Under the pieces are notes generated by a model, which worked only from the letters and a program-made list of their open reading frames with translations, was not told the origin of the DNA and made no database searches. From the NCBI GenBank assembly GCA_013995675.1, contig VWRR01000001.1:868001-932000 (forward strand): a stretch of DNA of 64,000 bases. Reading direction: 5' to 3'. The translations under genes were made by a program, and so were the position numbers. The stretch comes from Cyanidiococcus yangmingshanensis (taxonomy: Eukaryota; Rhodophyta; Bangiophyceae; Cyanidiales; Cyanidiaceae). Positions 3,577-63,741 of the stretch are shown here, in pieces (position 1 is the first letter of the stretch; every line of letters starts with the position of its first letter).

Positions 3577-5868
3577 TCATTTGGCCTCGCCGTATCGGCT
3601 CCCGTGCCAGAGCCGTTCGCGTAACTCGTCCATGCGAGCCTCGACTTTGTATTTAACCTCTCGAACTAGGGGCTGTTCGCGAATGCGCTGCACCTGACGT
3701 CGTAAGAGGAGCTCCAGTGCGGCGGCGCGTCGACAATGCGGCCCATACGTGCGGTTCATATGGGGCACCTCGACCAGCACCAGAAACAATACATGAAGCA
3801 CCTGGGAGCAGAGGGCGAACCAGAAGGCTCGCCAGCTGGCTGCCGCCAGACTTAGTCCGTACATCCATAGATAGCCAAGTACACAGTCTGGATTGTTCAA
3901 GTATCGATAGATGCCCGCATAAGACGGCCGTAACAATGCCTCTACTGAAGTTGGACGCTTCCAGGGGCCGCTATGATGCGAAAGCGCACACGGCTCTAGG
4001 AAAAAGTCCCCATAAAACCAACCGTAATCTCCGAGAATGCGGTATGCGGATATCGAGGAGGAGGCGCCAACAAGGATGAGCGCGGATCCGCCGACCAAAG
4101 CAGCAGTGCGACCCGAAACCAGAGACCACATGGAGGGGATGCGAATGGGCTCCGCTTCGTGGAGCGCAAGCATCACGAACACCAAGTGGTTCATGACGAG
4201 GCTCATGTTGAACGTGCGTTGCCACTGGCGGAATGCCTCCGCGGCACAATGGCCACGCTCTTCAAAATGACGCGTCCACCAGCGCCGAGTGCTCTGTAGG
4301 AACAGTACTGTTCCTAGGCCAAACCAGTGAAAGACCATCCAACCGATGACCTGCATGGAAGTAGTAACGGCGTGTCAAGCTCCATCCCGATAGCGCTGGA
4401 GTCAAGATTGTCATGAACGCCAATATCAGCAACGATAAATCTGAATTTCGAAAAGGATCTAGGTTCGCGAGCACAACAGCCTCCTTCTCGATATTGTCCC
4501 GGGAGCAGCAAGACGCTGTGCAAGCCCTCTCGCCGAGGCTGTTGCTAGAGGTTGCTGGACCCTGTGCTCTTTCACTAGGGCCAGTATATTTTTTGGATGT
4601 GCGGCTCCTCCACACACATGAGAAATAACAACTGGGACGTATGGGCAATCAGAGACACAATCAATAGGGTGTAGGACCGACAGATCAAGCTAAAGCCAGT
4701 AGTATGCAGTGTAACCCACAGTGTACATAGGGTGGGGGAAAAGTTCGAAGACGCCGTCAAACGTGAGCTCGCCCTCCATGAGGAAGAAAAAGTCACCCCA
4801 GTACCAGGCGAAATCACCGACGACACGATGTGCGCTGGTTTTCGCCCAAAACGAAAAGCCAATGAGCGCCGCACCCAGCAGGTAGCAGAGCCACATGTCG
4901 GGACGCAGAAACCAATTCTCCACTACCGGCCAATGAAATACTCGATAGCACAGCAGCAAATAGGACCAACCATCGTTCGCTAGGATGATCGTGGCCAAAC
5001 ATCGGAAAGCGACCCAGGCTTCGAAATCGACCGGCAGCAGCTGCTGTTGTCGCCGCGTCTCTGCGTCCACTGGGGGCTCGCCCGATGACCTCGGCTCCAA
5101 TACGATGGAGCTCCGAAAACATCTCCGAACCCAACGCTTCCACACTGGCGACAAATTCGTCCACCAATGCGTCATCACAGCACGTTGCGACTGCATACGT
5201 AAGAGACACCCGAGGCCAACATTGTAGGCCAGGCGCCAACAGAAAAAAAGCATCACCGAAGCGACAACGCCATTCGAACGACTATTTGACTGTGGATCGG
5301 CACACCACGAGTCCAGCACAGGAAACCATCGCACTGTTGCTAGGAGCTGAAGCAGCAAAAGTATATGCAGGAGGTATTCGAGCGGGCCCCAGCTCCAGGC
5401 ATCGAATACCAGTGCGGTCATGCTTTTGGTGGCTGGTACTCGAAACCGCTCGCTCGATATGAGGCCTGTCCCGTAACGTGGTCGCAACGATTCAGTCTTC
5501 ACAGATAGAACTGGTACACTGCTGTGCGTTAACGACGAACACGAAACAGCCGGAGCGCCCTCCGTGGCCGACACCGTCGTCGCCAAACCGCCAACCAATT
5601 GGCTCTCCGCAGCTTTCTCGCCAATCATCGAGGCATGAAATCGTGTCTGCACGGAAGTTTGGGTGAGATCATCCGTGTCTGAACGCAGACACGATCCAAG
5701 AGCACGTCGTCTGGCCCTCGCGTCCCCCGAGCGGAGCGAGCTCGCCTCATCGGAAAGCGATGAGGTCGACGGCGCACGGCTTGGAGTGCGTCTGCTTTTC
5801 CGCCCCCTCTGGTTTCTTCTGCGTCCAGCAAGGGTATGCAGCTCTGCATCATCCATGCCAAGCTCCAT
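3577..5868 (-). CDS. CHO2: phosphatidylethanolamine N-methyltransferase, CHO2 type, in four frame segments
   Basis: CHO2 enzymes methylate phosphatidylethanolamine with S-adenosylmethionine in the ER membrane on the way to phosphatidylcholine. From the ATG at 5868 an N-terminal Ser/Arg-rich region is followed by several hydrophobic segments and the family motif FPHPMYTVGYTAYY. The next expected residues (GFSLICRSY, then EEPHIQKIY) continue in the next frame, then GPSERAQGP in another, and the second half (FHWFGLGTVLFLQS, WTRHF, second methyltransferase-like unit) in a fourth. Each step needs one base skipped, near 4698, 4583 and 4360. The first two sites share TAC-T-GGC followed shortly by TAG. 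Corrected length is about 762 residues, a little shorter than yeast Cho2. Sequence error, real decay or frameshifting are all possible; the homology is clear across all parts. Confidence 0.85.
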
Positions 5869-6802
5869 ACCGCACACAAAACTTGGTTGCGTTCGGCACG
5901 ATTAGCCTCGTGCGTCGTCTGGCGGACAACGACACGCAGACGACAACCTGGCGCGCCTGGGCACGCATGCGCCCCAGATGGGATGCGTGCGCGTGCACGC
6001 ATGGTGGCTGGTTTGTGGCGAGCGATGCGCGACGAAGGCGGGCCACGCGCCAGCCGGCCTTTTGATCATCGCCATCGCGATCGCGCCGTCGCCCTTTGGC
6101 AACGGGCCAACAGACCGAGAGCGATTGAGACGAAACGCAATTTTTCTGTATGTTTTGGACATGCGTGGGCGAACCCCACGGGGCGCATGCGATGATACGG
6201 CGTTCTCGCCGTGGTCGTGCCGCGGACCAGGATGCGCATGTGCATGGTCTGTGTTGGTGCATCCGGCGATGAGGCAACGAGTTGCTGTGGTGCCACTCTG
6301 GTCGCCGTGTCTCGCTGGGGCACTCTTATCGCTCTCGGTCACTGGTCGAGCGAGCGAGGGGAGACGGTGAGACCGAAGCACCGGATCATTGGGCTAGGGC
6401 CAGCGATCGAGAGCCATCCTCCACAGCCGACATGAGACAAGTCAGACATACACTCGTCTCGAGTCGATTATTCTGAAATTGTTTTCAAACAGAGAACCAC
6501 AAGGATTGCAAGGACCAGGCGTGTAGCTGCGATATGCTATCCCTGTCCGTACTCGGTGTCAGCCGGGGCCTGTCTCGGGTACCAGTTGCGCGAATGGTCA
6601 TGACTGACGGCGCGAACCGCAAGGCGAGCGCTGTTTAGAGAGCACGCTCCATTCGGGTTTCGGGTGACGAGTTGCGATCCTGGGTCCTGTTTGCGATCCA
6701 TCGGCACCGACGGGCGCATCGCTTTACTTGACTCACAGAGGCGATGTGTCCGCCGGTCTCCTCGGGAGCGTTCGAAAGGCCATCCGCCTCTGTTTATGGA
6801 TT
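5869..6802. other. inter-gene stretch
   Basis: This holds the 5' flank of CHO2 and the 3' flank of DXS (both minus strand). Overlapping open frames of 70-160 codons on both strands around 5850-6440 reflect GC-rich DNA poor in stop codons; they show no conserved domain and no common frame. No RNA gene was recognised. Confidence 0.5.
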
Positions 6803-9125: not shown

Positions 9126-9798
9126 GAACTGCAGTACACCCTTTCCGATCGCGGCGAAGAAACGTCACAACAGAGCACTTCCCCAAGTAACGAAGGCGCG
9201 AGAACCCAGCCGCACCGATCGAACTTGGAAGTCTCCAAGAAGCCAACAGATACACTCACCGTTTTCTTTCACAAAGATGTGTCGTTTCGATAATAACCGC
9301 AATGACTTGAGGAACGTGAAACGTCACCGAGTACCTGCAGACGAAGTAGGTGGCGTTGTCGGAGTGGCCACGTGAGCGCGCGGCCGCCTCATCGCATCGA
9401 GCGCGCCTCCGCCATCAGTGCGCAAACGAGCCGCGCCCATGAGCGCATCGCTGGAGCTTAGATGATCTTGGACTCGAACGTTCAAAACTTGAACTGTTGG
9501 ACATCGCGCTCGGGAGTCTGCGGCGACAGCCGCTGGCAGGGACACTTCCCGGCAGCAAGATCTGAGACAAGATGGTACTTTTCCGATTCAACTGGCCTTT
9601 ATAGGACTCACCACCGAGGGCGCCGTACCCTGGGCGCCGATTCGGGGCGTTCGCGGGCGCAACCGCTGGCGCCAGCGTCCTCCCATGGTCGCATGTTCGT
9701 TGAAAATGCCACATTTGATCTCGGGTTATCAGTGAACTCTCAGGATTCATGAGTCGTGTCTAATCATGCACGGTCATCTGTGCAATTGCCATTCATCC
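9126..9798. other. inter-gene stretch, 5' flank of DXS
   Basis: This separates the A43 stop from the DXS start, both minus strand. It should contain the DXS promoter. Short open frames on both strands have no recognisable domain. No TATA-like element convinced me. Confidence 0.45.
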
Positions 9799-18333: not shown

Positions 18334-19835
18334 CTCATCATGGTTTGCGCGTTCAAACCGCAATGACCATACACACGAGAGAGTGTATCTCTGTCGAGCG
18401 CTCGGGATGATTACTACGGGTATCACTAGAACTGGAACGTGTTGTGCATTGACTGCACCCAGGTATCGTATCACCTGGAAGGCACTCAGTTCCAGATCTA
18501 CAAGTTTCGGGACAATCAACTGCAGATTCAAAAGCCGCAACGAATAGCAGGATCATCATGCGTAACCAACTGGTGGTCGTATGACGGGCCGACTGCCATT
18601 TCATACGACGATCCGGCTTGGTGGCGGCGGTAGCGGAGCCAACGAGTGCGCAGCATTTTCTACACCAGAACGCTCGCATGTCTCTCTGTTTGCTGTACAG
18701 CTCACTGAAACGCAACGTTGGGTATGGATCGGTCTAGCGTACAAATGTTTCATGTGGATAGGGTGGTGGTTTGTGGCGAGACGGCACCTGAGCTCGCTCG
18801 ATCTCGTGTAGGTTGATACTCATCAACTGAAACAAGCTGCTTTTAGAGTATCCGAGCATGTCGATCGATGTGAATAGGCGTGCGTGGTATCGAGAAGCTC
18901 GTTACCACCAGCGCCTCGTTACGAATCATGGATCGTAGCAGTTCACCGATGTCGTCGTGTGGCCGCTCGCTTCCCCGTCTCGACCCGAACAGTTTTCCGA
19001 ATCAGTGATCAGGGTTTGCAACGCTATTCCCAGAGATGGTCATATATGGGTCCGTCTGAACCGAGGCACCTCATTTCGACGAGCTTGCGGCTGATGTCAG
19101 ACGGATCCAAAAACATGAAACGACGCGTGCCAAAACAGAAACATCCAGGGGTGCAGCGTGTCGCACCTGAACGAAACATAGGACTTGTCCGTTTCTTTCA
19201 CACCAGTCGGTGCAAATAACTTGTATCAAAAGCGACGAAACGCTCAATTAAAATATCGAGCATCCGTTTGAAAAACGTCTTGAGTTTTCAGGGGCTTTTT
19301 TACCCCAAAAGACGGTTTCGTGCCCAAACTCAAGCGGCAAACTTGTCTGAAAAAATTCAATCCGTTTGTCAAGCGACCATTGAACAACTTTATATTAGAA
19401 AAAATGGCCAAGTTGGTGGTCTGGAGAGCACCAACAAGTCTCGAGGACGAGTATGCCTGGCGATCCAGGCGTGGTGCCGTACTCAATGCCCCCGCTCGTG
19501 CCCCCGATACCACTTCTCTTCTTTCGGCACTTGACCCATTCAACTTTTAATTCAACTTAGACTCCAAATCGAGCGAAATGAACTTGGAAAGTCTGTTTCG
19601 ACTTGCTTATAAAATCGGTTTGACGACCAAACGGACAGCGCCCTTGTGTGCCCCCGAATGCACTGGCCTGACGGACGTTTCGTTGTCCTGGTCAGTGCTT
19701 GTCGGGCACCGACCGCTCGCAAACGAGTCCCCGACCTCGGTCTCTGTTCTGAGTCGCGATTAGCAGTCTGATCTACATCTCGTGAGACATCTTGAAAGTA
19801 AGGCCGTCGCACAGGGCTGTTTGGCGTTCCTCGTT
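18334..19835. other. inter-gene stretch, no gene assigned
   Basis: This is 1.5 kb between SmD1 and the adaptin gene. Frames of 60-111 codons occur on both strands. A basic 76-codon frame at 19320-19550 (plus) is the most protein-like but matches nothing I know. The region includes the adaptin promoter. Confidence 0.4.
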
Positions 19836-22677
19836 ATGCAGAAGGAACTAGACAAGGCCTTTCGTAGCGCGAAGAACGCACTATCCTCGGCCAAGAAACA
19901 GTATATCGTCTATGCCCTGCGGGACACGGTGAAGCACTTTCGGAAGCAACGGACAGCTTCAGATGAGCGAGAGTTCGTGAAAAAGCAGTTGGCACAGGTT
20001 AGGGATCTGTCCCGTCAAGAGGATCGTTTTTTCCGTCGACGCAACGTGGCGAAACTCGTCTTCTTCTATCTAAATGGCTACAACGTCGATTTTGGGGCTA
20101 TGGAGTGCGTGAAACTGTGCGCGAGTGACAAGTTCAAGGACAAACGTATAGGGTATATGGCCTTACAGGTGCTGCTGGACGAGCAGGCTGAAGTCCTTCT
20201 CCTCATCGTGAACGTTTTGAAGCAGGATCTCCAGAGCGATAACCACCAGATCGTCGCTCTTGCACTGCACGCCCTTGCGAATCTGGCTTCCGCTGAACTG
20301 GCACGAGACTTGGCCCCTGACGTAGAGCGTCTGCTTTATTCAAGAAACCCATTTCTCCGGAAAAAGGCGGCGCTCGCTGCCGTGCGTCTTTGTCGGCGGG
20401 CCCCCGAACTGGCAGATACGTTTCGGGCAGCGGCACTGGAACTGCTCAAGATGCCCCATCATCACGGTGTTGTCATCTGCGGTTTGGCGCTGCTGAATGA
20501 GTTGTTGACCATCGCCCCTGGCGCGCTTTGGAATATCCTGCGAAGCGAGTACTTGTCACCGCTACTGCAAATGTTGCGGGAGACAGCCACAGCAGGCTTC
20601 AACGCAGAGTACGGCTTCCAAGGTGTTTGCGATCCGTTCCTGCAATGTCGATTGCTGCAAATGCTCCGTCGGTTGAGCCAAAGTGGTGAGTTCGCAACCG
20701 AAGAACTGCATCGAACGCTTATTGACGTGGCACGTTCTAGTGAACGCTCCCATGCAGTCGTTCTGGAATGTGTTCGGACGATCCTTGAAGTCGCGAACAC
20801 GCCGCCAAACAATATCATATTCGCGGTTCAACGGCTGGGAGACTTTTTGCGGAATCGGGATCCCAACCTCCGATTGACAGCACTGCAGCTGCTTCGCCAA
20901 GCCGCAACTTTGAGCATGGCTACTGTGGCACAACACCAGGAGACGATTTTCGAATGTCTCCATGACCAGGACCCAACGATACAGCGTCGGGCGATGGATC
21001 TCATTTTTTCCATCGGCTCAGCAGAATCCATGGAGCGTATCGTGGACGAGTTGGTGTCTTATCTACGTACGACACGGGAGCCTGTCTATCGTTATGAGAT
21101 CCTTCAACGCCTGTGGGCACTTGGCGAACAGGCTGAGATAGGAGTGTTATCGAGATTGCGGCTCTTTTTCTGTACTGCGCAAAGTCTCCCTGTAGATGAT
21201 GAAGGCTTCGATCTACCAGTCATTCAGGAAATCGAGTCAGAGCTGGCAGACGATGTCGTTGCGCTCATGTTGTCGCATTCGTATGAGGGCGCGACCGCCT
21301 CTCGTCTGCTCTTTGAGATAGTCATGGAACAGGTTTCTGCTGCTCGGGCTGCTGTGACTCTCTTACTGCACATTGCACTCCTCTTCGCTGCGGAGCGTGG
21401 CATCTTTCGCTCAACTGAGGGCACGGGGTCTGATCACAACATTGACTCCTTGACGACAGCAACAGATATGACTGATTCCAATGGTCATTCCTCGTCTGCT
21501 CCCGGATCAGGTCGTCTCTTGGATGATCGCAACGCTTCGACCATCACGCCTTCATCTGCTGCGAATAACTCCGAAGACAGTGAACCTCTAGCCATGCGCG
21601 AGGACGCAACTGCTAATATTCGTATGGCTGAGACGGCCCTCTCTATGCCGCGTGATCGGGACTTGTCCCTGCGCCAACGGCAAGAGCGAGCATACCTTTA
21701 CCGAACGACCATACTCGGACGACTAGCGATCGATGTGCTCTTTCGCACCGCGCTTCGTTCGAGAAACTCGGCAAGTGCTACCTATATCGAATGTTTGAGA
21801 CTCATCAAGGAACGATGCACTGCGCTGAATGTGCAAGTTCAGCAAAGGGCTCGAGAGTATGCGCATTCTCTTGAAAACGTTAACGCTGATAGAATGGATC
21901 AACTCGAGTCATCCTTGTGCTTACCGTCTTCATGTTCCGTGCTGGCATGGAGAAAACGAGGCGTGCTTCATGGTGGACAGGGCAACGTGCGCATGGACCC
22001 TTGCGAACAACGGCGCTGTCGTCGCTTTGTCAATGCCACAGCTCATTTCCTTCGATGAGAACGAGAATGTGTCAGAAGCCTCGAGAGCCTCAACAGATGC
22101 GCAGTTGCCAGGGACGTTGTCGGACCATGACTGATCCGTTTGGACAAAGCGAACGGGACGGTGGTGCGCTTCCGAGCTCCATACGGCAATGAGTGCCCTT
22201 GGAACGACCAAAGACGAGGGATACGACCTCGTCACCAATGAGGCAGCTTTCGATCGAGCGAATCATGATTTCGAAAGCGACCGTGAGCGACATCCCTTTC
22301 GCCAAATCCATGAGGATGAATTCCTCTGTATTCGCATCCGATTGCTCTCATCGAGTTCTCCAGACAACCAGGGCATGCAGGTTGTCCATGTCGAAGCTCA
22401 GTTTGCGAACAAGACGCCTCGTGTACTCGCCAAGTTCCTTTTCCAAGTATCAGTACCCAAATTCGTGCGACTGGAAATGATGCCAGCCAATGCGGGGAGT
22501 CTGCCGCCATCGACACAGCCTCAGACTGTGATGCAACGTCTCCGGCTCTTCAAGGAGCGCACCGAGATGCGACCCTTCTCTTTTCGATTTCGTTTCACGT
22601 TTATCGACCCCTCCGGTCAGCAGCTGGTGCGGCAAGGAGTGGTGAACGACGTCCTACGTGTCCTGAATGGCAGATGA
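19836..22677 (+). CDS. AP1G: AP-1 complex subunit gamma (gamma-adaptin), frame-shifted hinge
   Basis: Gamma-adaptin is a large subunit of the AP-1 clathrin adaptor at the trans-Golgi network and endosomes. The ATG at 19836 (MQKELDKAFRSAKNALSS) is preferred over an upstream GTG. The trunk (about 650 residues of HEAT-like helices) contains family blocks such as DKRIGYMALQVLLDEQ, NHQIVALALHALANL and RKKAALAAVRLCR. The C-terminal gamma ear lies in 22189-22677, with FLFQVSVPKFVRLEMMP and FRFRFTFIDPSGQQLV. In between, the hinge shifts frame: the trunk frame stops at 22058. The next frame carries a clathrin-box-like LISFDE at 22042-22059 and stops at 22134, and a third frame offers DPF near 22136-22144. 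Trunk and ear are one base out of register overall. About three single-base changes would reconcile the parts, two of them extra bases. Confidence 0.88.
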
Positions 22678-23416: not shown

Positions 23417-26161
23417 CTACAACTCGGTATGATCCATATGTTGTTTTGGTACGGTTGATATCGATACTGACGCGAGCGTTTCCGTTGGTCCGGGCGTAAG
23501 CCTTACCTCATGGCTTCGCTCACTGCTTCTCTCTGCATGCGTCTGGTTCATGGAGAGCAATGCGCTAGCAAAGCGTTCTGAAAGCGACTGCAACTCCTGC
23601 TCTGTTTGATCCACCAAAGCAGCCGACGGATGCGCTTTGAACCGTTCCGAGAGCTCACGAACTTGCTCCAGCAGGGTGTCCAGATCTGATGATCCTTTGC
23701 TTTCTGCTCGGAGTGGATGCGGCTGCTTAGGTTCGTGGCGATGCTGGAGGATCCAGTGCTCGAGCTGCTGCAGGGTTTTCATGCCTTTCTGGTAGGTTTC
23801 TACCCGATGATAGACCGGATTGGTGATGCGCTCAAGTTCTTGCAACCGCTGTTCCAGCCCAGCGACATCCAGTTCTGTGCTGGGTCGCTGATGCATCCAC
23901 AGCTCCGCTTGATGGACCTGCTTCAGTATCTTCTCGCGCTCGCTTTCCCAGCAGAGTCTTCGAGCGAGGGCGCCAGAATGTTCCCGACGCGTCCGAGGCG
24001 CCAAAGTCCTCATGCGCTCGCAACAGCATCGCTTCCACGGCATTCAACAAATGGGCTCGACGTTCTCGCTCGAGATCCTGAGCATCCAGGGTTGCCAGAT
24101 AGAACCCGGATTCGCGCCTACTCGCTTCAGCTCTGGTCCCATACAGACGACTTTCGTGACGGACGCAGTTTTCTTGTTTTTGCTCGGTTCGAAGCAGAGG
24201 CCGGCTCCTTCCGGGTAACGGTGCTTGGGGCTATCGTTTCCTCGGTTGCATTGGTCTCGACCGAGCGCTCTTGCAGAGGCTTGCTTGGGTCGGTCTCGGA
24301 GGTGCCACCAGGAGCATGATCTAGATGTTGGTCACGGCGAACTCCCTCACCGGCGCGCCATATATCAGTTTTCACGGTCCCGTTCCATTGAATCTGAGCA
24401 CTCGCCAACTCAACTTCACCAAGTGCATCCATGCCGAAACGAACCTCCAGATCCATTGGGGATTCGTGGCCTTCTGGCCATCCCTCAAACTTCCAGTGAG
24501 CAACGCGAGAGGCGTTCGTCCAAAAGTCTGTGGTATCGCCGCCCTCGTATAGGTGCAGCTCTGTGTTTGCGCTGACATTCAAGAACTTGATACGACGAGA
24601 CCCATCGAAGCGAGCCATTCGAGCAGAGAGCTCCTCACAATGGTCATGTGGCTGCCGATCTGCAGCACCGCTCGCCGCACAGACCATGAATCCCCGTGGA
24701 TGCACATCATAAATGCCTATTTGACGCACACGAAATAGTGGTGAAAGCGCGGCTGCATAGAAAGCCGCACCCATAATCGCTGCTTCTTCGGCGTTCACGG
24801 TCTTCTGCCAGAGATGGCCTTCCGGCGATGCGTTGGATCTCTTGTTCAACACGCGGCATCCGCGAACCCCCACCTAGCGGTATGAGCGCATCCAGCACTG
24901 TCTTGTTGGCACTCCGTTGATGACTTGAAAGCAACCGCTGGACGCATAGCTGGATCTGCTCAAACAGTCCACTGCACCGCGTCTCAAATTCTGCTCGTGA
25001 GATCAACAGATGGTGCTCTGTGCCGTCGGGGAGCTTCGATGTGGAACAGGGCCTCCTGGTTGGCACTGAGAACCTCCCGCACTCGGTTTGACTCTCGTTC
25101 GAGACGCAACTGGAAACGTCGTTCAGCATCTGCCTGTGACAGCCGCTGTCAACAGCGAACGCTCCCTCAGCCGATCCAAGACGAGATCAGAAAGACAATG
25201 GTCGAAGGCGCGACCTCCAACGCGATCATCCCATGCGTACTCCAGAACCTCAATCGCTTGCACAGGCAAGGGAACGTTTCCAGCTGCCGTGCTCGATTCT
25301 TTCGTCATTTTGTTGGATGTCGTGAAGCGGATCAGCGCTGTTGTGGTCCCCTGAGCACCGACATCGACGAACAGCACCGTCTGCGTACCGTTGATCGCTC
25401 GATCCAGAGCAAACCGAATGGCTGCCGCCAATGGAGTGTGTACGAGTCCACGAACGTTCCAACCGGCGAGGCGAGCCGCTTTGACTAAAGCAGCACGCTG
25501 CGACTGTCGGAACCATACCGGCACGGTAAGGACGGCATCCGAGCCGAAGAGATGCTCGTTGGGGGTGCTCGACAACTGCTCCTCCTCCTCCGGCGACAAG
25601 GTCGCCCGCATGGCAGCATACGCTCGTCGTCTCACCTGTCCGAGAAGCATGCCAACCAGCTCAATATCAGTGAAAACAAGTTCTTGACGTCTACCGAGCT
25701 GTACGATGCAACGGTGGACGAGTCGCTCCCGCTGGCTCCTGGACGAGGCGACCAGAGCCCCTTGACCAGAACAGTTGGTCTGTTCGAATAGCGTTCGAAC
25801 GCCTCGGACCGCATAGTCTGGCCATCTCCCGTACGCAGGAGACATACCAGACTCCCCAAAGCGTCGTTCCAGTAGTCTCTCTGTCACTGGGACGAAGGCG
25901 ATCAATGCCGGCGTTTCTCGTTTGCTCTGCTCGTTGGTGAGTACCTGGATTCCAGGTCAGCGCTTGGCTCGCTGCAAATCGGACGTTTTCTGAGCCGAGA
26001 TCAATTCCAAAGGCAGCGAGCTGGCTGGTCCCTTGGAGACGTGTCGTCGTCGTCGTTGTCGCAGCGATCACTGGACAGAGGGCTGCGAGCCACAGCGCCC
26101 AGAGCGTTAGCGCACCGACGAAGAGATGGAGCCATTGCCGCTGCAGCGCAGTCTTCACCAT
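23417..26161 (-). CDS. HYOU1: GRP170/HYOU1-type ER Hsp70-family chaperone, seven frame segments
   Basis: GRP170 proteins are large ER Hsp70 relatives that act as nucleotide-exchange factors for BiP and as holdases. The ATG at 26161 begins a clear signal peptide (hydrophobic core LHLFVGALTLWALWLAALC). The ATPase domain starts with AAFGIDLGSENVRFA and continues in later frames with QSKRETPALIAFVP, VLFVDVGAQGTTTALIRF, ESNRVREVLSANQEAL, ALIPLGGGSRMPRVEQEIQR and KTVNAEEAAIMGAAFYAAAL. A beta domain and an acidic, linker-rich region follow, and the C-terminal helical part contains AHLLNAVEAMLLRAHEDFG and ESEREKILKQVHQAELWM. Joining these needs six frame changes, near 25950, 25134, 25030, 24820, 24135 and 23970, all in the sense of one extra base. 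Corrected length is about 912 residues against roughly 1000 in animals. No ER-retention signal is seen at the end (HMDHTEL), although DHTEL is close to the HDEL type. Confidence 0.87.
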
Positions 26162-28864: not shown

Positions 28865-30381
28865 GCCGTATGAATGGCGAACGATTCGACGTCATCATAG
28901 GAGTTGCTTTTTCGTGCACGGCAAGTACGTCTTGAATATGAGTGCGGTTTGAGCATGCGCTGTAGCAGACCCTCTTGAGAAAGATTTGAACCGCTGACTT
29001 TCAAAACAACGTGAACGTCATCGACCTTCCATTCGAGTCTTCATGCGCTACGATCGCCGGACCCGGGACCGAGCACCGTCGGATGCACCGACCAAAGCGC
29101 CCTGCAGAAACTCTTTTCGAACACATTCAGGCGATGCTGGACGGGATCATCGAGTGTGTCGAATGGATCTCATCTGAAGCATCTTGATGCAACAACGACT
29201 TGTATTCCATTCAAGCGGAGCAGCAAGGGCATCAGCTCGCGCGAAACCATCCGTGATTAGCAGTAGGATTTTACCAAAGCCGAGCCGCTTGCCTTTTCGG
29301 ATACAGTCTGGCGCCTTGTCCGTCTCTCGCCGATATCCAAGCTTGCTGAGCATGAAGGTGCTCTGCGAGCATTTCGTCACAGGCCTGCTCACTCGTCTGT
29401 TCTCCTCCGCGGCTACAGACGGATTTGCGTATTGGTGGCAATTCTATGACTTCGACGGTGTCGTCACGCTGCAGTTCAGCGTGCGAACGCCTTTTGGACA
29501 CAGCTCGTGGTTTCCAACCATGCTCCAGACTCGACACACCCTATAAGTAAAGCTCCTGCTGGGATGCGTGTTTCTCACCCTGTCTCAGAGACTGCATCCG
29601 GCGTCATATTCTATGAACTTGTGCGTAAGAACTTGAGCAATTCAAGAAAATCGAGACCGAGCCACTCCTAACTATGATTTCCATCGCACCTGCTGACGAT
29701 TCGACAAATCGATACCATCACGTATCGATGCGCAGCCGTAGGCAAGGCGGGTCCATGCGCTGCACCAATCGCCCCGGAGCACAATTGACCTATCTGTCGA
29801 TACTCATCCCTGCTGAACATCTTTTGGAGGTGTTCGAGGTACCCATCAGCCACCAGGTGCATCAAAGGAGGCTTCGTCTAACCAAGAGCCTGCGCTCACA
29901 TTCATTCAACTATCTGCATGACACGCAATCCCTTCTCTGGCAACCACGCCAGGATCGCAGACCGCCTCCGACGGCGTTGCCGCCATCGGGTCGCCATCGG
30001 GTCGCCATCGGGTCGCCGGGCAGGTACGCCCGATGCGCGCGCGCCCCGCCAAACAGATCCGTCGAAAAGACAAGGGGGCCGCTGCGTTCCCGGTGCGCGC
30101 GCTCCCCGCCAGAGACAGCGTGTCGCTGTGTCCGTTGCAACGGATGCGCGGTGCGCCTCGTCCCATTCGCAACAGAGCACGGACGGCGGGCCGTCGGCCA
30201 CAGGCGCTCTGGCTGGACGGGCACACGCCTCGCGGATGACGGACGCCACCGATCGGCCAAGCGGCAATCTCCGGGCTGTCATCGCGGACGCGCGTCTTGC
30301 AAGCCGACGCCAGCGGACGCTGTGGTGCAGCCACTCGAAACGAGTGCGTCATTGAGTTTCGTCAAGCGACGCTAGGAGATC
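28865..30381. other. inter-gene stretch with a GC-rich island
   Basis: The stretch separates two plus-strand genes. On the minus strand, two overlapping frames at 29147-29537 look mildly protein-like but lack an ATG. From about 29920 to 30330 the DNA is strongly GC-rich and open in several frames on both strands; I read this as composition, not as genes. Confidence 0.4.
29981..30020. repeat. short tandem repeat, 11-bp unit
   Basis: Roughly three and a half copies of CGCCATCGGGT follow one another inside the GC-rich island upstream of the ATP-grasp gene. Two looser related blocks, each ending in CCCCGCCA, lie near 30035-30050 and 30095-30112. Confidence 0.7.
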
Positions 30382-40408: not shown

Positions 40409-40409
40409 T
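40384..40409. repeat. TCA/TTA trinucleotide run
   Basis: A short trinucleotide microsatellite (TCA repeats grading into TTA) directly after the stop codon of the palmitoyltransferase gene on the minus strand, so it would lie in its 3' untranslated region. Confidence 0.85.
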
Positions 40410-41497
40410 CAAACACTGTAAGTCTGGACGCGCGGAGATGAAAGCCGCTCCGGCAAAGGTAGTACCACACGATCGTATTTGTATGCTGCCGAGGCCGCCG
40501 ATGATTGAACTGAACGATACCATGATGCATCCAGCTCCATGTTCTGCGCTGCGGCATCCAGATCCTTGGGATCTATTTGGATCATCTCGAGAAACTTGGG
40601 GTCTATGCGTGCATGAATCTTCACCTTACTCGGCGGTTTCCGTGAACACAATACTTTTCCCAGATTCTTGAAACCCTTAGGCTGAAACGGACTGCCTTGA
40701 TCTCGAAAACTGTGCTTGAACGACTCCGCTGTTGTCTTGTTCGCGAAGATGAGCGTGGTGTGAAAGACGCTCAGAGCGCCCGTAAAGACAATGCCAAACA
40801 ACGCGATGACGAGGATAACCAAACTCGCTGCCGTCGGGCCGTTGGAGAGCGAGCGGGCGAAGCCAGCAAAGCCGTTCGAAGAAGCCCCTATGTCACTTTC
40901 TGAGCGGATACATTCGCCAAATATACAATCGTAAACGCGAAAACAAAGCCAGAGAGCGCAAAACACGAAAGGACGAAAATATAAAAAGTACGGTAGTTGC
41001 GAATCCCTATGCAGTTACTCACCCAGGGGCAATGGTGATCGAAGCGTTCCACGCAATTGTTGCATGTGGAGCAGTGCGAGCAACGTGGCGGTCGGTACAA
41101 CTGGCAAGTTTCACAATACTTCATCACGAAGCGCTGCCCATCGCAGAAAGTCTCTTTCTTTCGCAAAAGCGGAGAACTTCTCCGTATTCTCTGCGCGAAG
41201 AGATCCACTTCCTGGCGCGGAAGAATTCCGGGATCATCAAACACTGTAAGGAAGAACGCCGTCAGGGTTATCAGAAGTAACGGCGGAAACGTCACGAGTA
41301 CAGCAATGCCCGTTCCGAGATAGTTCTCCACCAGAAACGGAACTGGTATCGCCACAAAGAGACCCATCGCAACGGCGATAAGCGCGAACTGTTGCCAGCG
41401 CACCCCACGGGTCTGGTCCACTGATGCACTTGCCGTGACAGTAGAAACGGTTACGCCCAGGCCAGACGTCACTCGGGAAGCGTCCGCGGATGGTCAT
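40409..41497 (-). CDS. DHHC palmitoyltransferase
   Basis: DHHC enzymes attach palmitate to cysteines of proteins at Golgi, ER or plasma membranes. The cysteine-rich domain is complete: [20 protein letters not shown] and [19 protein letters not shown], with the catalytic DHHC. Two hydrophobic segments lie before it (residues about 25-75) and two after; the downstream [10 protein letters not shown] carries the TTxE motif of the family. Two frame problems exist. The enzyme frame starts without an ATG, and an ATG at 41497 lies one base out of register. After YLANVSAQK the frame must change near 40893 in the opposite sense (one base missing) to reach [20 protein letters not shown] and the TTxE motif. 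The corrected product is about 362 residues with four membrane segments. Substrates are unknown. Confidence 0.93.
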
Positions 41498-42997
41498 CGT
41501 TGCGAATGGTCAGCGTGCTTCTCCAAGATGCACCCTCGATAAACCCGTAGGTTGCACTGGAAATGAACCACTGTTCCGGCTCCAAGTCAGCAGTCCAAGT
41601 CCCAGGTTCCCTTCCCCGATCAACCTGGTTGGCTGCAGAGATCGTTACAAGGAGGGATTCGCGCGACGTACGCCCACAGGGTGCGCAGTCGTGGCTCTGG
41701 ATCCGCGCCCGGTCGATCGGCACAACGCCGCCCGCGATCTTCGGCTGGCGGCGCGTGGCGTCGATGCGCCCGCCAGCGACTGGGCCATTCGAGGCGACCC
41801 CCAGCAGCTACGCTCGAAGACGCGCCACGCTGCTGCCGATCGAGTTCAATTCTGGTGATTTGTTGGTGCCTCTCTAACCAGCATGTTTTATCCGAATGGA
41901 GATGGCCTCCTCTGGTTGAAACCGTGTCTAGAGCTCACGCATTTACGTTACGGGTGTAGATCGATGTTCGATTCCGAGTGAGTAGCCGCTCGAGGCATCC
42001 ACTCGTCCTGGAATGGAGCGAGCCAGGGCATGTATTGCTTCAACTTTTTGGTGACGACAGGTCCAAGAACCATGCTCTCATTGTCAGAATAAATCTGTAT
42101 GGAGCATACATGCTGGATTCCCTCGTTCCTCAGAAGAGCTCGATCAGGAACAAGGCATTACGCTCCGGTGATGCTCTTGTTTCTATCGGTGCGATGCTTG
42201 TGTTTGTATTTGTATGTTTGTTATCTTGACAACGCTTGCATCGTTTCGGGGGTTACGTGCATATCACCTCGTCTATGGTGCACCGCGGATCGATGTGGGT
42301 CCTTTTCCAGCGGCTCCACGGGCTGCATCCGCCCGTTTCGTGTCATCGCTGCTCTAAGCAAGCGTTTCGGCAACCGTCCCAGTGCCCCAGAATCATCCAG
42401 CCCAGGTGTATCCACCAGGGAACAATGCCCGAGCTCCCGATCGGTCTACATGAGTCAGATGTAGACCCATGATCACCGAACAAGACGAGTTCCCCTGTAC
42501 TAGACTTGTACACGAGATGCCTGGCGCCACGGAGAAACTGCAGGGAAACTCCGGCACGACCACCATGCCAGCATATCACTGTACATCTATTCTCAGTATA
42601 CGGCAACGCTCCCGCAAAACACTGAATCCATTTATCCTGTCACTGCTGCGTCAGCCAGTTGACCCCATCGCTCCCGATAGCCGGTCTCCTTCGTTCCATC
42701 CGTGGGATCACCGCTGAGCGTCACCGACAGGGCCGATGCAGAAACCGACCCTGCATACCCCCGGAGCTATGCATGCAGCATAGACGCTGGCCCGGTGTCC
42801 GGCGAGAACGCCACCAGGACAAGATGGGACACGCCAGCCAGCCAGCCAGCCATATCTGCGATCAGATTCGCTGGGCGCGACGCTCCGGAGACGCCCACGA
42901 GCGGCTGCGATGGATCCGATCCCGTGGATAGCGTCCATTTTGAGGTGCTGGCTCGCTGAAGCGCCTCTCAACAGAAAGCAGCTGCTCGTCTAAATTG
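41498..42997. other. inter-gene stretch between divergent genes
   Basis: This 1.5 kb should hold the promoters of the palmitoyltransferase and glutamate decarboxylase genes. Open frames up to 122 codons show no domain. A short (GCCA)n run lies at about 42833-42852. Confidence 0.45.
42833..42852. repeat. (GCCA)n microsatellite
   Basis: About five copies of GCCA in the 5' flank of the glutamate decarboxylase gene. No function is implied. Confidence 0.8.
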
Positions 42998-44774
42998 ATG
43001 CCTCTACATAAGGCCGTTGATCACAAAGGGAGTTCCAAGCATCTCCATCACATTGATACGAGCAGTTTGGCGTTTGAGACGGGATTCTCGAGTTTTGCTT
43101 TGGAGGAGTTTCCCAAATATGAGTTGCGGGCCGAACCTATGCCCTCTGCAGTCGCTGAAGGCATCATAACACAGGAGCTGGAGCTTGACGGGAATCCTGC
43201 GCTAAATCTTGCATCATTCGTTACGACTCGTTTCGATGAGACCACACACAAGCTCTGTGATCGGATGCTTCCCGTGAACTGGATCGACTTTGACGAGTAT
43301 CCGCAGACCGTGGAGATCCATAACCGCTGTGTGAATATTATCGCGCACCTTTTTCATGCGCCCGTAGCTGACGGTGACCAGGCTGTTGGCACCAGCACGG
43401 TTGGATCCTCGGAGGCGATCATGCTTGCTGTGCTTGCCATGAAATGGCGCTGGCGTGCGGCCCGCAAAGCTGCCGGCAAGGACTACGCGCGCCCGAATAT
43501 GGTCATGGGTGCCGAGGTTCAGGTCTGTTGGGAGAAAGCAACCGCTTATTTTGATGTCGAGGCACGCTATGTTCCATTGCATGACGATGTTTACGTTATG
43601 GACCCGGAGCAGGCGATTGCACAATGCGATGAGAACACGATCGGAATCTGTGGGATTCTAGGGACAACCTACACTGGACAATTTGAAGCAAGTTCAGCGG
43701 CTGGCACAGCATACAAATTTCCGAGATCTGAACAAGGAACTAACCGCGAGCGATGGAGAACGACCCGATGCTACGTTGTAGGATATCGCCAAATTGGATG
43801 CGTTGGTGACCCAGATGAATGAAAGCAAAGGTTACGATATTGGCATTCATGTTGATGCGGCCTCTGGCGGCTTTGTGGCACCGTTCTGTTACCCGAATCT
43901 GAAATGGGACTTTCGTCTGAAAAACGTGCGTTCCATCAACGTTTCAGGGCACAAGTACGGTCTAGCCCCGTGTGGCATCGGGTGGCTCATCTTCCGGAGC
44001 GCGGAATACTTGCCCGATGAGCTGGTCTTTCATGTGAACTATCTGGGAGCAGATCAGGCCTCTTTCACGTTGAACTTTTCGCGTGGCTCCGCACAGATCA
44101 TTGCCTCTTATTATTTGCTGCTGCGGCTAGGCCGTCGCGGATACGCGAATATGATGAAGACCTTGAAAGAGTTGGCAGCGTATTTCGCCGGGCGAATCAC
44201 CGAAGATCAACGCTTTCGGCTCCTGAGTGACGCTGAAAGTCTTCCGCTGATTGCATTCGCCATTCCCGACGACCAGCGCCCGAGCTTGGGTTTTGACGAG
44301 TTTGCGCTCGCAGCCGAGTTGCGTAAGCGTGGATGGATTGTGCCAGCGTATACGCTCGCTCCGGATCTGCAGCATCAGAAACTCCTGCGGGTGGTGGTGC
44401 GGGTCGGCTTTACTCGGGATCGTGCAGACATGCTGATACAGGACATTCGCGCAGCGTATGATCATTTGCGAGCCATGTCCGGACTTTTGCACTTGGTCGA
44501 ACGTGGTCTAACGGTGGCGGACACCGAAGGTGCGGCCAAAGTGGAGAGCGCGCATTCGGCAACTGCTCTCGGCAAGCTGATGCACGGCAACAAGACTATT
44601 GAGGAGCATGTCAAGGAGTTTCGTGAGCAGCATGAGCAACCGGCGGCGCGGCATTTGCTCCATGCGCAAAGCTGGGGCACACTCACCGTCAAAAGTGGAA
44701 AGGATCATTCACATAACGGAAAGCACGCGGATCATCATCGTTCGCGCAAAAAGCGTAGTGGAGCAGTTTGCTAA
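42998..44774 (+). CDS. GAD: glutamate decarboxylase, two exons
   Basis: GAD removes the alpha-carboxyl of glutamate to make GABA, using pyridoxal phosphate. Exon 1 (42998-43687) contains FVTTRFDETTHKLCDRMLPV, TSTVGSSEAIMLAVLAMKWR and GICGILGTTYTGQFE. Exon 2 (43782-44774) continues DIAKLDALVTQMNESKGYDI, IHVDAASGGFVAPFCYP and the PLP-lysine motif SINVSGHKYGLAPCGIGW. The join falls exactly between codons and restores the family sequence TGQFE-D. The product is about 560 residues; the last 90 residues are hydrophilic and His/Lys-rich at the very end, longer than bacterial GadB and without an obvious calmodulin-binding helix. The ATG at 42998 follows a TTG codon in frame. No targeting peptide is evident, so a cytosolic enzyme is likely. 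Confidence 0.95.
43688..43781 (+). other. GC-AG spliceosomal intron in GAD
   Basis: The 94-nt intron starts GCAAGT and ends TTGTAG, with a branch-point-like AACTAAC at 43738-43744, about 38 nt from the 3' end. Removing it restores the GAD family sequence in phase 0. The unspliced frame stays open, so only homology reveals the intron. Confidence 0.88.
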
Positions 44775-45421
44775 TCGGAACGGAAGGCGCATTTGCTCAT
44801 GGCGGAAAAGTTTGAACGACGCGTACCTCATCTACCTCTGTTCGTATCATGAGGCGCGAATGCAATACGTACTGCGATGTTTGCTGCTCTCCAGACCAGC
44901 AGCGTTGAAAGGACAAGCTCATCCATCACAGGAGCGGCCCAGCATCCCGATCAATCTGGCTTGGATTGAGTTTGAAAGATATCCACCTTAAAAGGGTCCA
45001 TGATTCTAGTCAGGAGACGTTCGCGACATCCAAGTCACTCGAGGACCCGAGCTCGGTATCGCGCCACGCCAGACCAGCACACTCACGGCAGCGTTGACGC
45101 TCCGTCGACCATCCCAACTGTCACGAAACTTTGTATCGAGCAAGGACAGATTCAAGCGGATGGGGACACGAATGGTATTGAAATGAAGAAAGGAGTGGCC
45201 GACGGTGGTGTCGTCCTCGGCGCGGTCGCGCTCGGCCGGTCAGTGGCCCGTCGGTGCGTCTGCGACGCTCGCTCGAGCCAATCCGCCAGTGTTTCTTCTT
45301 CGAAAAAGAGCGGTTGAGGGTAGCGCTCATCCTGTCTTTTCGTCGATAAATGGCATCTAGAGTTCCTTGATTGTCTACTTTCTAGAATTACTATTGCTGC
45401 TAGAAGTTCTCAACTGACGTA
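44775..45421. other. inter-gene stretch
   Basis: About 650 bases between two plus-strand genes, holding the promoter of the glucosidase gene. Frames of 69-105 codons show no domain; no RNA gene was seen. Confidence 0.5.
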
Positions 45422-48293
45422 ATGGTTGCTGATCTTGTTCCTTTGCGGCAGAGACGATACCCGTCTTCGCAACGCCCGTGGAGACCAACGTGCTCTCTGC
45501 GCTCCCTCTTGGTGTTCATTCTGGTTATGGTCTGCAATGGGTGCTTCTTGATCGTGCCAGCTACTCTAGCGACGGACGCTCTCACTTCTAGGGGGAAAGG
45601 GCGGGCTCTAAATATCCGAGCAACGATCCGAGGGGAACCAAACCTCGATCCACACGTGATGGGCTCGCTTGTGCCGGGGGTTTTCGCTGGCTACCGACGC
45701 CCAGTGCCCAACTCGCCTTTGTTGGGTGCTATGTGGTTTTCAGCCGATGATCCGCTTGGTTTTACGCGTCTGCGGCAACACTGTGCGTCGAGCGTGGACG
45801 GTTCGAATCCGCTCCGATATGGTTGGCTACAGCACAATGGTCGAGACTATGGAGTGCGTTTCATTCAAGAGCATGGATGGAACTTGACAATCGCTCACCT
45901 TGCTCATACAGAGTCACTCGACCTGCCTAATGGTTCGGAGACGGTTCGAAATCCGCCATCGGGGTTCTCCTTTCGAATTCGAGGGAGCGGTGAAGGATGC
46001 CACAACGTATCCCTGCTGATCTACTGGGCCGCGCAGCGTGACGAGATCAATCCCGCAGACCTGGAACCTTCATCTCCATCAAAGATTCAACCACCGGTTT
46101 TTGAAGATTGCCCGCAACCATCGATCGAAGAAGAGCCGCGGGGTCATGTACATGTTCGGTGTGGCACCATGCGAGACCAGTGGCACATCGTACCGGTTTG
46201 TGGCCTGCCAGAGCGCTCCAGACCTCGTCGGAGAGGACATCGGCGTCGACGTCGATCCAATGCATCCAAATCGGAGACTTTTCGTGCAGTCTGGGAAAGT
46301 TCCGATCTCGGCAGGATCCATTTGCGTCGAGGCCAAGCGACAGTCGGGACACCTAGTGAAGTCAAGTCGGTTATCGAGACTTGGCTGAGTGAGAACCGCC
46401 ATCGCCGCCTTGAGCAGCTCCGTGTTGCCCATGAGCAGGAACGAGCAGCGCTGTTGTCGTTGGATGCCGCATCGAACAGTTTTGATGAGTATGTGCAACG
46501 TTGGTTGCAACAACCCGCTGAGCGTCTGCCGACGATTGTGACCACTGAGTTCGACGATCACCTCCAAGACGACGCGAGTGGAGACCGTCAAAAAGGGGAA
46601 CCATTCACGCGATCACGGCATAAAGGATCCCCAGCGTGTGAACCTCCTGGTAGCTCAGCTTACATTGCAGACACCTTTCGAGATTATCGTGACCTCGAAC
46701 GAGCTGATGAACGCAACCAGATTTGCCTCAATGCTTGAACAAGCGGAGAAGCGGTTTGAAGAGCGGTTTCAGGAGGTCTTCCCTCGTATTCGCGCGAGCC
46801 AGTTCAACACCCGTCAAGTGGCTCAAGCGCAGGAGGCCCTTGCTGGTTTACTCGGAGGAATCTCATACTTCTACGGCAGTCTGATTGTTGAAGAGAATCA
46901 GACTGGCGTCGAGTCGGAGCCGATCTCGATCACCCAACCATTAGCACTGATCAGTGCAGTCCCATCCGAGAACAAATTTCCCCGTGGTTTCCTCTGGGAC
47001 GAAGGTTTTCATCATCTGCTGATTCAACGCTGGGATCCTGAACTTTCCTTCATTTGTCTTCATTCCTGGCTCCAGCTGACCATGGAGTCGGGCTGGATAC
47101 CGCGCGAACTGGCTCCCGGTATTGAGGCTCGCAGTCGTTTTCCGAAAGATCTGACCAAGCTTTTGGTTCAGTCGGAGCGCGTTGCGAATCCACCGACGCT
47201 GCTGATTCCACTGCATCGGCATTGGCGGATGTTGCAGGAAGCGTTTCCATTGGTTGAACTCGATACGCTCTTGAGTCTTTGCGCCGAGGGCGGCGATGCA
47301 GCACTCGTCGATTACACTGCGATGATTCTGGACAAGTCGATTGATCGTTGTGAGACTGTAACCCGCGTGGCTGATACTGCGCAACGTCTGACGGATCTGG
47401 CTCTGCAAAAAATGGCACGCTATCTTCTCTGGCTGAACAAGACCCAGGAACACTATGGCTGGTTCGGGCGCAACTTGACAACGCTTCGCGTGCAAGATGG
47501 TGACTATCCGACGACGCTCGCCTCGGGATTCGACGACTTTCCGAGAGCGCCGGTGGCAAGTGCGAGGGAGGCGCATGTCGATCTACTCTCCTGGATTTTG
47601 TACGGTATTGGCAGGCTAGTCGCCTGGGTTCCGTATGATGGGCGCGCGGTCGACTCGCACAAACACATCCTCCATGAACTCAGATCACTGGAAAAGTCGC
47701 TGCAACGTCGGCTCTTTGATATACACTGGAGTTCCAAAGCAGACATGTTCTGCGACATGGACCAAGCGGAATCAAGTGCGTCGGAGTCGGCGAGCCCCTG
47801 GCAGCACCATTGTCATCTGGGATACCCAACCTTGCTCCCGTTATCGTTGGGCTTGCTACCCGTCAATGCAACCCAGACACGAGCGCTCCTCGAAGCTGCA
47901 GCGGATCCGCGACAGCTCTGGAGCCCGTACGGTTTGCGCTCCCTGAGCGCCGCGGACCCCTTCTACATGCGAGGAGATCGATACTGGACTGGTCCTATAT
48001 GGGTCCCCATGAACTACTTGACCTTGGCGGCGCTGAAAGAGAAATATGCGCGCTTGCCCGGACCCTCCCAGAAGTCAGCCGCGCATCTGTACGAGCGCAC
48101 GCGCCAGGCAATCATCGAGACTGTCCTTCGTGAACATGAACGAACAGGATTCTTTTGGGAGCACTATGATCCCGCAACAGGTCGAGGCGGTGGTGGCCAC
48201 CCCTTCACTGGATGGACTGCACTGGTTGTTCTCATCATGGACGAGGACTATAGCGGCATCATCGATTCAGATGGATCGTTTCTCGTAGACTAA
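45422..48293 (+). CDS. MOGS: mannosyl-oligosaccharide glucosidase (glucosidase I, GH63)
   Basis: Glucosidase I removes the outermost glucose from the N-glycan precursor in the ER. From the ATG at 45422 a single N-terminal hydrophobic segment (LLVFILVMVCNGCFLIV) acts as a type II anchor. The N-terminal beta domain has FAGYRRPVPNSPLLGAMWFS and LRYGWLQHNGRDYGVRFIQE. The catalytic (alpha/alpha)6 domain has LAGLLGGISYFYGSLIV, FPRGFLWDEGFHHLLIQRWD (acidic catalytic region), LASGFDDFPRAP, LWSPYGLRSLSAADPFY, YWTGPIWVPMNYL and HPFTGWTALVVLIM. Between the domains the frame changes once, by one skipped base somewhere in 46590-46640; downstream the sequence resumes with VNLLVAQLTLQTPFEIIV. Corrected length is about 956 residues, about 120 longer than the human enzyme, the excess lying in Arg/Ser-rich and charged segments of the N-terminal half. 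Confidence 0.94.
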
Positions 48294-60904: not shown

Positions 60905-61702
60905 ACGTCTGCAGCAGTTTGCCACACCCTGAAAAACACCAAACGTCAGAAGCCGCTTCAACAGCGCAATCTTTAGCACCGTAAATCCCTCTCAATGCTC
61001 ACTCTCCAACAGGATTTTCACGCCATCGTCACCGTTCATGCACCTACCGCGATCGCGGCAGCGCTCGCAGAGGACGCGAACACTGCGGCTCGCGCCGACA
61101 TGGGCGCCTGCGCACGCAGCGCCCCAACGAACGTTCACGAACAGAGACCGGCTTTGATGAAAAAGAACCAAGAATCATCACCTACTTGACCATACATCTT
61201 CATGTTTCAGGAAATATCCGTCTGAATAGACTCCATGATATTCGTCACGTATGGCAACGCGTTCCCGCCGAGTGCTTGGCACCAAGAATACGACGATATC
61301 GCTTGGAGGCGAGACCTTGTCCGCAACGTGCTCCAGACCAGCAGCTTTCAAATGCTTATGATCCTCGCACATATGCAGTGCAGATAGAGAGACAGAGGGA
61401 CTGATGCCTTATTTTCGTAGATATTCTCGTGTATGGAGGCATGCTTGATGCGAGAAGCGGTGTGCTGCACACTCGTCTGCGGGGATGCTGATAGGCGGGG
61501 GCGGGACTGTCCACCTTGCGGGCCGGCGCGGGCCGTCGTGGCGAGACGCACCTCCTATTGGCTAGACTGAGGAACTTGAGGACGAAGGGCGCGGTTCCTT
61601 TACGGACGAGGAAATCACAGGTCTGCGCTCGTTGTGCACCGGTGATCAACAAGGAACGATCCATCTGTCGTGTTGTGACTTTGGTTGTGGACGCTGATCG
61701 CT
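60905..61702. other. stretch between divergent genes
   Basis: About 800 bases with the promoters of the TMEM242-like and TOM40 genes. Frames up to 102 codons have no domain. Nothing else was recognised. Confidence 0.45.
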
Positions 61703-62768
61703 ATGGCGTCCACGTTCAAGACGACGGGAGGTGCTGCTAGCGCGTCGGGTTACGGTGGCGACTCGGCGACTACACCAGGGACGACTGTGCAGCGCCACGA
61801 ACAACCGTCCTTTATGACGGGTGCTCCGGCTTATACGTCCTCGAGCTGGTGGTGGCGAGCGATCGAACGAACCGAGCTGCCGAACCCGGGCGCTTACGAG
61901 GAGATCAACCAGGAAGCGAGCGCGGTGCTGCGTCCGAACCTATTCGATGGGACGCGATTCGATATGAACCTCCCGATCACGCCGACACTCTCGACCGGTC
62001 ACTCGATTGAAATGGGTTCTTCGCAGGCGACTCCAGGGTATGCGCTCTCCGTGAACTATATAACCAGCACGTTGATCGCGGTTTCACGGATGGATATGAG
62101 TGGTCGATTCAACGGGCGGGTCTTTTACACCCATACACCACGTCTGATCTCGAAACTTTTGATCAGTCGTCAGCCGGCAGAGGACCCTGCAGCGGCGGCA
62201 GCGATGTTGGCGGCAGCAACTGGTGGGGCAACTGTCGCATCGCCTTCGAATACAGCAACGACCACGGTGATGTATGATCTGGACTATCGAGGGAGCGACT
62301 ACTCGGCGAATCTCAAGGTCGGCACCGGTGGGGTCGTCTCGGTCGCGTACATGCAGAGTATTGTGCCATCATTTTCTATGGGCGGCGAGGGATTCTTCCA
62401 GATGCGAACAAGTTCAGTGCGTTGACGGCGGCGGCACGATATCTCACGACTGATGGGATTTTCTCAGCGACCGTGGCGAGTTTCGGACCAGTTGTAGCAT
62501 CCTACGTGCATCGAGTGAATCCTCGAGTCTCTTTAGCTGCCGAGCTCTTCTGGGATGCTCGCAGTCGAGAGTCGTACTTGACTGCTGGCTATAAATTCGA
62601 TCTGCGATCCGCGACCGTGATCGGACAGGTGACCTCGCTGGGAAAGTGGCAGCCATGTTGGAAGAGAAGCTGAGCCCCGGTGTAAGTTTTCTTCTCTCAG
62701 GGGAGATTGATCACCGCCAACAACAATACAAGTTTGGGTTTGGCTTGCAGATTGGTGGCTCTGCCTAA
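61703..62768 (+). CDS. TOM40: TOM40, mitochondrial outer-membrane import channel
   Basis: TOM40 is the beta-barrel pore of the TOM complex. The ATG at 61703 opens a Gly/Ser/Thr-rich N terminus, then PGAYEEINQEASAVLRPNLF with FDGTRFDMNL, the family's entry to the barrel (PGxYExhxxExxxVhxxxxFxGhxhxh). Beta strands of alternating character follow. The C-terminal half continues in a second frame (SALTAAARYLTTDGIFSATV, NPRVSLAAELFWDARSRESY) and the last strands in a third (VAAMLEEKLSPGVSFLLSGE, YKFGFGLQIGG, stop at 62768). Unlike most genes here, both changes (near 62401 and 62643) are in the sense of a missing base; the second sits in GGAAAG, as if one A of AAAA were lost. Corrected length is about 355 residues, normal for TOM40. 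Confidence 0.92.
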
Positions 62769-63128
62769 CCGCGTCGCCTCGGATCGCATGCATGAATGAT
62801 AGGCCTTGTGTGGCCATTCGGGTACCATCTCTCCAGTGCACTGCCCGAACGGGATGTATTCCAAAGCAACAACTTCACAGGCCCGTATCTCGAGCAACAA
62901 AAGAGCACAGAAGCGAGCCTCGAACGCTCTCTCTACCCGCGAACGCTAGGTTCGCTCCACGCGTGATACACGACGCAGGCCCAAGCCAGCCAGTGCCGCG
63001 CGCGTAACGTGTGCTCACCACGCCCAAGGACAAGCACCATGGCGAGATGGAAAGGATGCGCTCACTTCCCAGACTCCGAAGCGAGACTACAACGCGCTCA
63101 ACGAGTGGTCATATCGGTATCGATTGGT
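62769..63128. other. stretch between convergent genes
   Basis: About 360 bases between the 3' ends of TOM40 and the TEN1-like gene. No gene or RNA was seen. Confidence 0.5.
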
Positions 63129-63741
63129 TCAGCGGTCTCGTCGAGACCCTGTCGCGAAGATGCCTCTGCCGCCTGATCCTACAAAGGCAGTCGCAGCTTC
63201 CACGCAGGCGAAATATTCTCGTAAATATGCCTCCCGCTCGCGCAGGACCTGCTCGTACAGAACCATATCGAGTCCGTCCACACAACGTAGAGCGACTGCG
63301 TCGAGAAGGACCTTGGCTGTGACGTGGGACTGGTGGTCGTTCGGCCGCCCCCCGACGGTACCCCCGTCACGCTCAGGGGAGTATCGAAACCCAACGAAGC
63401 TTTCGGTGAAAAACCATTTGGGTAGACGGAGTTTGGGGTGCGTCGCCAGGCTGCTCCACGTTGCGGTTGGCGGCGTGTCGGGTACCGAATAGAGTCGACC
63501 AGTGACTTCGACCAGCGCGCCAATACGAATGCCTTCCGGTAGATGACCGCCCATATGAACACCTAGTCGCCACGTTCTATACTCTAGTACCAGGAACGCA
63601 ACGTCGGGGCAAAACTGGGCCAAGCGAGCAACAACCCGCACAGTCGTCTGCGTTCGCGTCAAGTGAGCCGCTTCCGCAACGAGCCTCTCAAAAGTGATCA
63701 GGAGCGCAGGCTGCAAGTCCGCTGTCCGTCGCAGCCATCAT
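63129..63741 (-). CDS. OB-fold protein, TEN1-like
   Basis: TEN1 is the small OB-fold partner of STN1 in the CST complex, which caps telomeres and aids fill-in synthesis. The frame reads LLITFERLVAEAAHLTRTQT, then VRVVARLAQFCPDVAFLVLE and GIRIGALVEVTGRLYSV, an OB-fold strand pattern matching TEN1's start. After a non-conserved insert it ends ALRCVDGLDMVLYEQVLRER, closely like the last helix of TEN1-type proteins (DGLDxxLYxxAL). It has no ATG in its own frame upstream. An ATG pair at 63741 (MMAATDSG) lies one base out of register and would join near 63717. Corrected length is about 203 residues against 120-125 in animals, the excess lying in the insert. Another OB-fold family member, such as an RPA-like protein, is possible. 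Confidence 0.5.

Follow-up and report, generated by a model that had tools for sequence, protein, structure and literature searches.

The window, a stretch of 64,000 nucleotides from the red alga Cyanidiococcus yangmingshanensis, raises the question of why many of its conserved genes can be read as whole proteins only if the frame moves by one base, mostly in the same direction. It spans positions 868,001 to 932,000 of contig C1 (G000:C1:868001-932000; 1,044,797 bases) in a genome assembly of 12,072,675 bases and 20 contigs, and has a GC content of 51-58% in 2-kb steps. The available text of PMC13353863 describes the C. yangmingshanensis genome as 12.0-12.1 Mb in 20 contigs with 54.6% GC. The original prediction, made from the letters of the window, counted about 25 frame changes, about 21 requiring that a base be skipped and about four that one be added. 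We confirmed that conserved genes carry frame changes and that most have one direction, but not the exact counts. The changes are, with high confidence, consensus errors of this Cyanidiococcus assembly that are biased toward insertion.

Frame changes in genes of the window

Sixteen pairs of ORFs, chosen as parts of one protein, were compared by frame arithmetic (Table 1). Twelve of the steps are net +1 and four are net +2 (equivalent to -1). Pfam matches of one protein are present in both parts for the first CHO2 step, adaptin, the PLP decarboxylase, glucosidase I and DHHC. Within this set, one domain continues from frame to frame in PEMT/CHO2, the PLP decarboxylase and DHHC, and N- and C-terminal domains occur in different frames in glucosidase I and AP-1 gamma adaptin. 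The second and third CHO2 steps were paired using P0005, an annotated protein of the same species. For the ATP-grasp gene (no Pfam match in its upstream part) and the first step in TOM40, just one of the two parts matches Pfam. The frame model described below, coding score or reading by eye was the basis for the second step in TOM40 and for the pair at 33341-34157, neither ORF of which matches Pfam.

The sole +2 step in GRP170 resolves into two +1 changes when aligned to homologues. The other three +2 steps, two in TOM40 and one in DHHC, had been read as sites where a base must be added. The net +2/-1 steps were recovered, and they may reflect missing bases or, instead, pairs of extra bases. 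In the PLP decarboxylase, an in-frame stop directly precedes the second ORF (window 43650-43950), and one extra base may be insufficient to account for it.

Changes had also been proposed for DXS, DnaJ and RRP8. One open ORF contains the domains of DXS, and a single ORF covers the entire DnaJ domain; a frame change was confirmed in neither gene, and RRP8 is likewise not among the genes in which one was confirmed. The changes had been placed between positions 3577 and 63741; they are found in the window, and also on sequences outside it.

Table 1. Genes with frame changes; positions are those of the window unless a locus is named.
Feature	Position	Strand	Frame changes and basis
CHO2-like phospholipid methyltransferase (PEMT)	3577..5901	-	Four overlapping frames; extra bases near 4698, 4583, 4360
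PEMT pieces (Pfam) of the CHO2-like gene	ORFs 4690-5901, 4575-4922, 3577-4374	-	
AP-1 gamma type adaptin	19764..22677	+	Adaptin_N and Alpha_adaptinC2 (Pfam); frames differ by net +1
GRP170-like HSP70	23417..26161	-	Extra bases near 25954, 25134, 25034, 24820, 24129, 23978; frame-aware alignment
ATP-grasp gene	30376..32134	+	Net +1 near 30746; frame model, coding score; ATP-grasp match downstream
Gene without family match	33341..34157	-	Net +1 near 33788; frame model and coding score only
DHHC palmitoyltransferase	40409..41493	-	Pfam DHHC 6-76 then 50-132; net +2 (or -1) step
PLP-dependent decarboxylase	42944..44774	+	PF00282 positions 17-218 then 226-373; net +1, called near 43781
Glucosidase I (GH63)	45404..48293	+	N- and C-terminal GH63 domains in two frames; net +1, called near 46577
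TOM40/porin	61679..62768	+	Net +2 (or -1) twice, with calls near 62363, 62629; Porin_3 in first ORF (the ORF scanned with Pfam) and frame model
PRP8-like spliceosome gene	L028:1-3989 with L044 (G000:C6 ~296703-303989)	-	Nine extra bases relative to P0125, P0126

Placement of the changes by alignment to homologues

Three genes chosen because they seemed to carry several changes, and whose density of changes is therefore not typical, were aligned to homologues in a frame-aware manner. All 18 of the changes placed in this way are extra bases (three in CHO2, six in GRP170 and nine in PRP8). The extra bases predicted in CHO2 and GRP170 are supported by alignment to P0005, and to P0001 and P0002, respectively.

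P0005 (CCYA_CCYA01G0066 [Cyanidiococcus yangmingshanensis]; in the search, 98% identical across 80% of the query) is a single chain of 613 amino acids that, compared at the protein level, needs no skip at any of the three CHO2 sites. Once the window is read with three one-base skips, 608 of 613 residues are identical. P0006, a relative from a JGI source, is identical at 511 of 608 aligned positions and indicates the same three sites. No residue is gained or lost relative to P0005 at any of them, which indicates one surplus base rather than an intron. This argues against introns or overlapping neighbor genes that mimic frame changes, an explanation that we consider extremely unlikely. An old-frame stop does lie within 10 bases of some frame-model calls, and these may be gene ends; however, introns within ORFs are reported to number just 35-36 in this species (PMC13353863).

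Five CHO2 residues (window 3577-5421) differ from P0005. At two of these the window has W and C, where both P0005 and P0006 have S and W. Substitution errors may thus occur as well.

The contig that encodes P0005 has 1,044,960 bases rather than the 1,044,797 of C1, and is thus another record of the species. The CHO2 gene is some 172 kb away from the far end of C1, whereas the number 66 in the name of P0005 suggests a position near one end of its chromosome. The two records therefore seem to be opposite in direction, or to differ at this place by an inversion of this chromosome that, according to PMC9812998, distinguishes two strains.

Both relatives of GRP170, P0001 (55% identity) and P0002, are predicted as one protein, and all six GRP170 sites and all nine PRP8 sites are spanned by relatives predicted as single proteins. 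For both genes the protein search returned relatives (P0001, 55%, and P0125, 73%, respectively) and no C. yangmingshanensis protein; the gene models of this species may be broken there too, or absent from the searched set. In the CHO2 and GRP170 proteins, sequence is kept on both sides of each break, and the alignments contain no in-frame stops. Both deletions called by the frame model in PRP8 prove by alignment to be pairs of insertions, one in L028 and one in L044, the latter outside the 25 modeled sequences. A gene for a mitochondrial-type HSP70 (L029:5645) has one extra base inside the conserved motif INEPTAAALAYG.

Number and direction of frame changes in the sampled genome

A second-order, phase-specific model that is free to change frame was trained on 304 kb of the 12.07 Mb genome, made up of the window plus 24 loci, each 10 kb long (25 sequences). 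A fifth-order model was dropped due to overfitting and missed coding sequence. The second-order model called 39 extra bases and 9 missing bases. Three extra-base calls were lost under a filter for flanks of 90 nt or more, leaving 36 extra-base and 9 missing-base calls in 170,068 modeled coding bases (binomial P 6.6e-5). Of these, 10 and 2, respectively, are in the window, and the bias is also found outside it (26 versus 7, P 0.0013). That 9 of the 45 filtered calls are missing-base changes is a point against the error explanation; one of them, in L028 (part of PRP8), is the insertion pair noted above. The counts are lower bounds: none of the three CHO2 changes was called, and close pairs were merged.

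Indels simulated in intact modeled genes of at least 900 nt served as a control. The model recovered 280 of 336 insertions and 286 of 336 deletions, and assigned the wrong direction to one of 336 in each case. The method itself therefore does not create the imbalance. Of the 25 sequences, 18 carry one or more filtered calls, and calls per sequence fit a single rate (chi2 27.0, 24 df). Several contigs carry frame changes, which are spread over the sampled genome (304 kb of 12.07 Mb) rather than being specific to certain genes.

Unfiltered frame changes affect 31 of the 123 modeled genes, a number that weighs against true recent mutations, i.e., many strain-specific insertions or pseudogenes in the sequenced strain. 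PRP8 alone has nine and CHO2 three, and these are usually essential or important genes. Five of the 613 CHO2 residues depart from the annotated protein, so the strain may not be the same; however, every placed change is one extra base, and the CHO2 and GRP170 alignments are free of in-frame stops. We consider recent mutation very improbable.

Stops and codons at the junctions

Widespread programmed +1 frameshifting, in which ribosomes skip one base at many sites as in Euplotes, would account for the net +1 bias on several contigs and for the preservation of protein sequence around the breaks. Against it, the annotated CHO2 of the same species requires no shift at any of the three sites, and the relatives of GRP170 and PRP8 are predicted as single proteins. 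A stop is the next old-frame codon at only one of the 18 placed junctions. The next codons are of 13 different kinds over the 18 sites, with no shared shift codon, although the exact extra base is ambiguous by a few positions. The median distance to the next old-frame stop is 73.5 nt for the 36 extra-base calls, compared with 45 nt for 141 simulated random insertions. Neither PMC9812998 nor PMC13353863 uses the word "frameshift" in its main text. Given the single stop, the variety of codons, the stop distances and the unbroken P0005 chain, stop-linked or codon-linked +1 shifting is not supported, and programmed shifting as a whole appears exceedingly improbable.

Base context of the extra bases

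The extra bases at the 18 placed sites tend to lie between C and G. The posterior weight of C-x-G is 3.38, compared with 1.48 in simulation (P 0.0002, the floor of 5000 resamplings), and that of C-[T/A]-G is 2.62 versus 0.70 (P 0.0002). Added bases equal to a neighbor are not enriched at these sites (8.61 versus 7.71 simulated, P 0.24). The C^G pattern was noticed post hoc in the same data, among ten features examined. Support is weak at 27 other sites, where resolution is low: the P value of C-x-G is 0.034, that of C-[T/A]-G 0.010 and that of C-T-G 0.11. Six further sites were placed by eye using PDB relatives and the HSP70 motif; two are compatible with C^G, three are T duplications and one is G-T-C. 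The preference for C^G steps is thus a weak lead only. That errors favoring C^G, with T or A added between, mark modified cytosines that disturb the long-read signal is conceivable but unlikely.

Non-coding sequence and RNA genes

The telomere unit of the assembly is AATGGGGGG, in agreement with the entry for C. yangmingshanensis in PMC13353863. In telomere arrays (L033-L043) it is mixed with AATGGGGTG, AATGGGGG and AATGGGGGGA units; the 180 units include 149 of 9 bases, 13 of 8 bases and 12 of 10 bases. These arrays were rejected as a non-coding control because lengths vary both ways and the variants may be natural. The first 300 bases of C1 contain no telomere repeat. A subtelomeric sequence of 9.4 kb at the start of C1 (L009, G000:C1:1-10000) has a copy of 96% identity close to the end of C9, and shorter matches lie close to the ends of many contigs. 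The pair was rejected as a control, being too divergent to separate errors from mutations.

ARAGORN yielded no tRNA for the window or any of the 24 loci, and a tRNA family search listed 16 matches. A scan of six sources against Rfam at the gathering threshold gave no match. Two conserved 18S rRNA motifs had no match in the whole genome with at most one mismatch. The species has two rRNA units according to the available text of PMC13353863.

Origin of the frame changes

Four lines of evidence support insertion error: the P0005 chain needs no skips, the changes occur on several contigs, they show no stop or codon signature, and sequence is kept around the breaks. The same explanation was preferred in the original prediction, and it stands. 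Most likely, then, the finding is an assembly artifact. The organism would translate uninterrupted frames into ordinary proteins, and the errors would have arisen in a long-read consensus without effective short-read correction, a platform and a cause that we infer.

The comparison within the species involves one gene (CHO2), with P0005 compared as a protein. The gene models in the assembly of P0005 were finished by hand, according to the available part of PMC9812998, so a hidden correction in this gene model is conceivable. Other assemblies of the species, from strains 8.1.23 F7 (PMC9812998) and NIES-4659 (PMC13353863), are described in the available texts as built from PacBio reads with Pilon correction. 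This is a point against the error explanation if it applies here, as Pilon should have removed such errors. Conversely, the 92.4% of complete BUSCOs in the published F7 gene set (PMC9812998, available part) was counted in favor of error. An earlier genome (Liu et al., 2020) is cited in the available parts of PMC9812998 and PMC10272599.

Recognizing probable consensus error guards against falsely inferring widespread frameshifting in an alga. Claims regarding gene content, gene fission and pseudogenes from this assembly are also unreliable, given the fraction of modeled genes with a frame change.

Comparison with known systems

In Euplotes, +1 ribosomal frameshifting is linked to stops. The C. 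yangmingshanensis sequence resembles this system in having net +1 changes in many conserved genes, but differs in that a stop follows just one of 18 junctions, no shift codon is common to the sites, and the annotated CHO2 has no shift. The programmed +1 frameshifts of Ty1, Ty3, antizyme and prfB use one or a few fixed shift sites. One base is skipped in these as well, whereas the 18 sites placed here are followed by 13 different codons.

Residual indel errors are a known class in long-read assemblies without effective short-read polishing. The likeness to such errors includes scattered one-base indels on several contigs, the lack of a stop or codon signature, and the fact that a second record of the species has the gene intact. 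The changes differ from typical long-read indel errors in that insertions strongly predominate (36 of 45 calls, and all 18 placed changes), and in that copies of a neighboring base are no more common than in random insertions.
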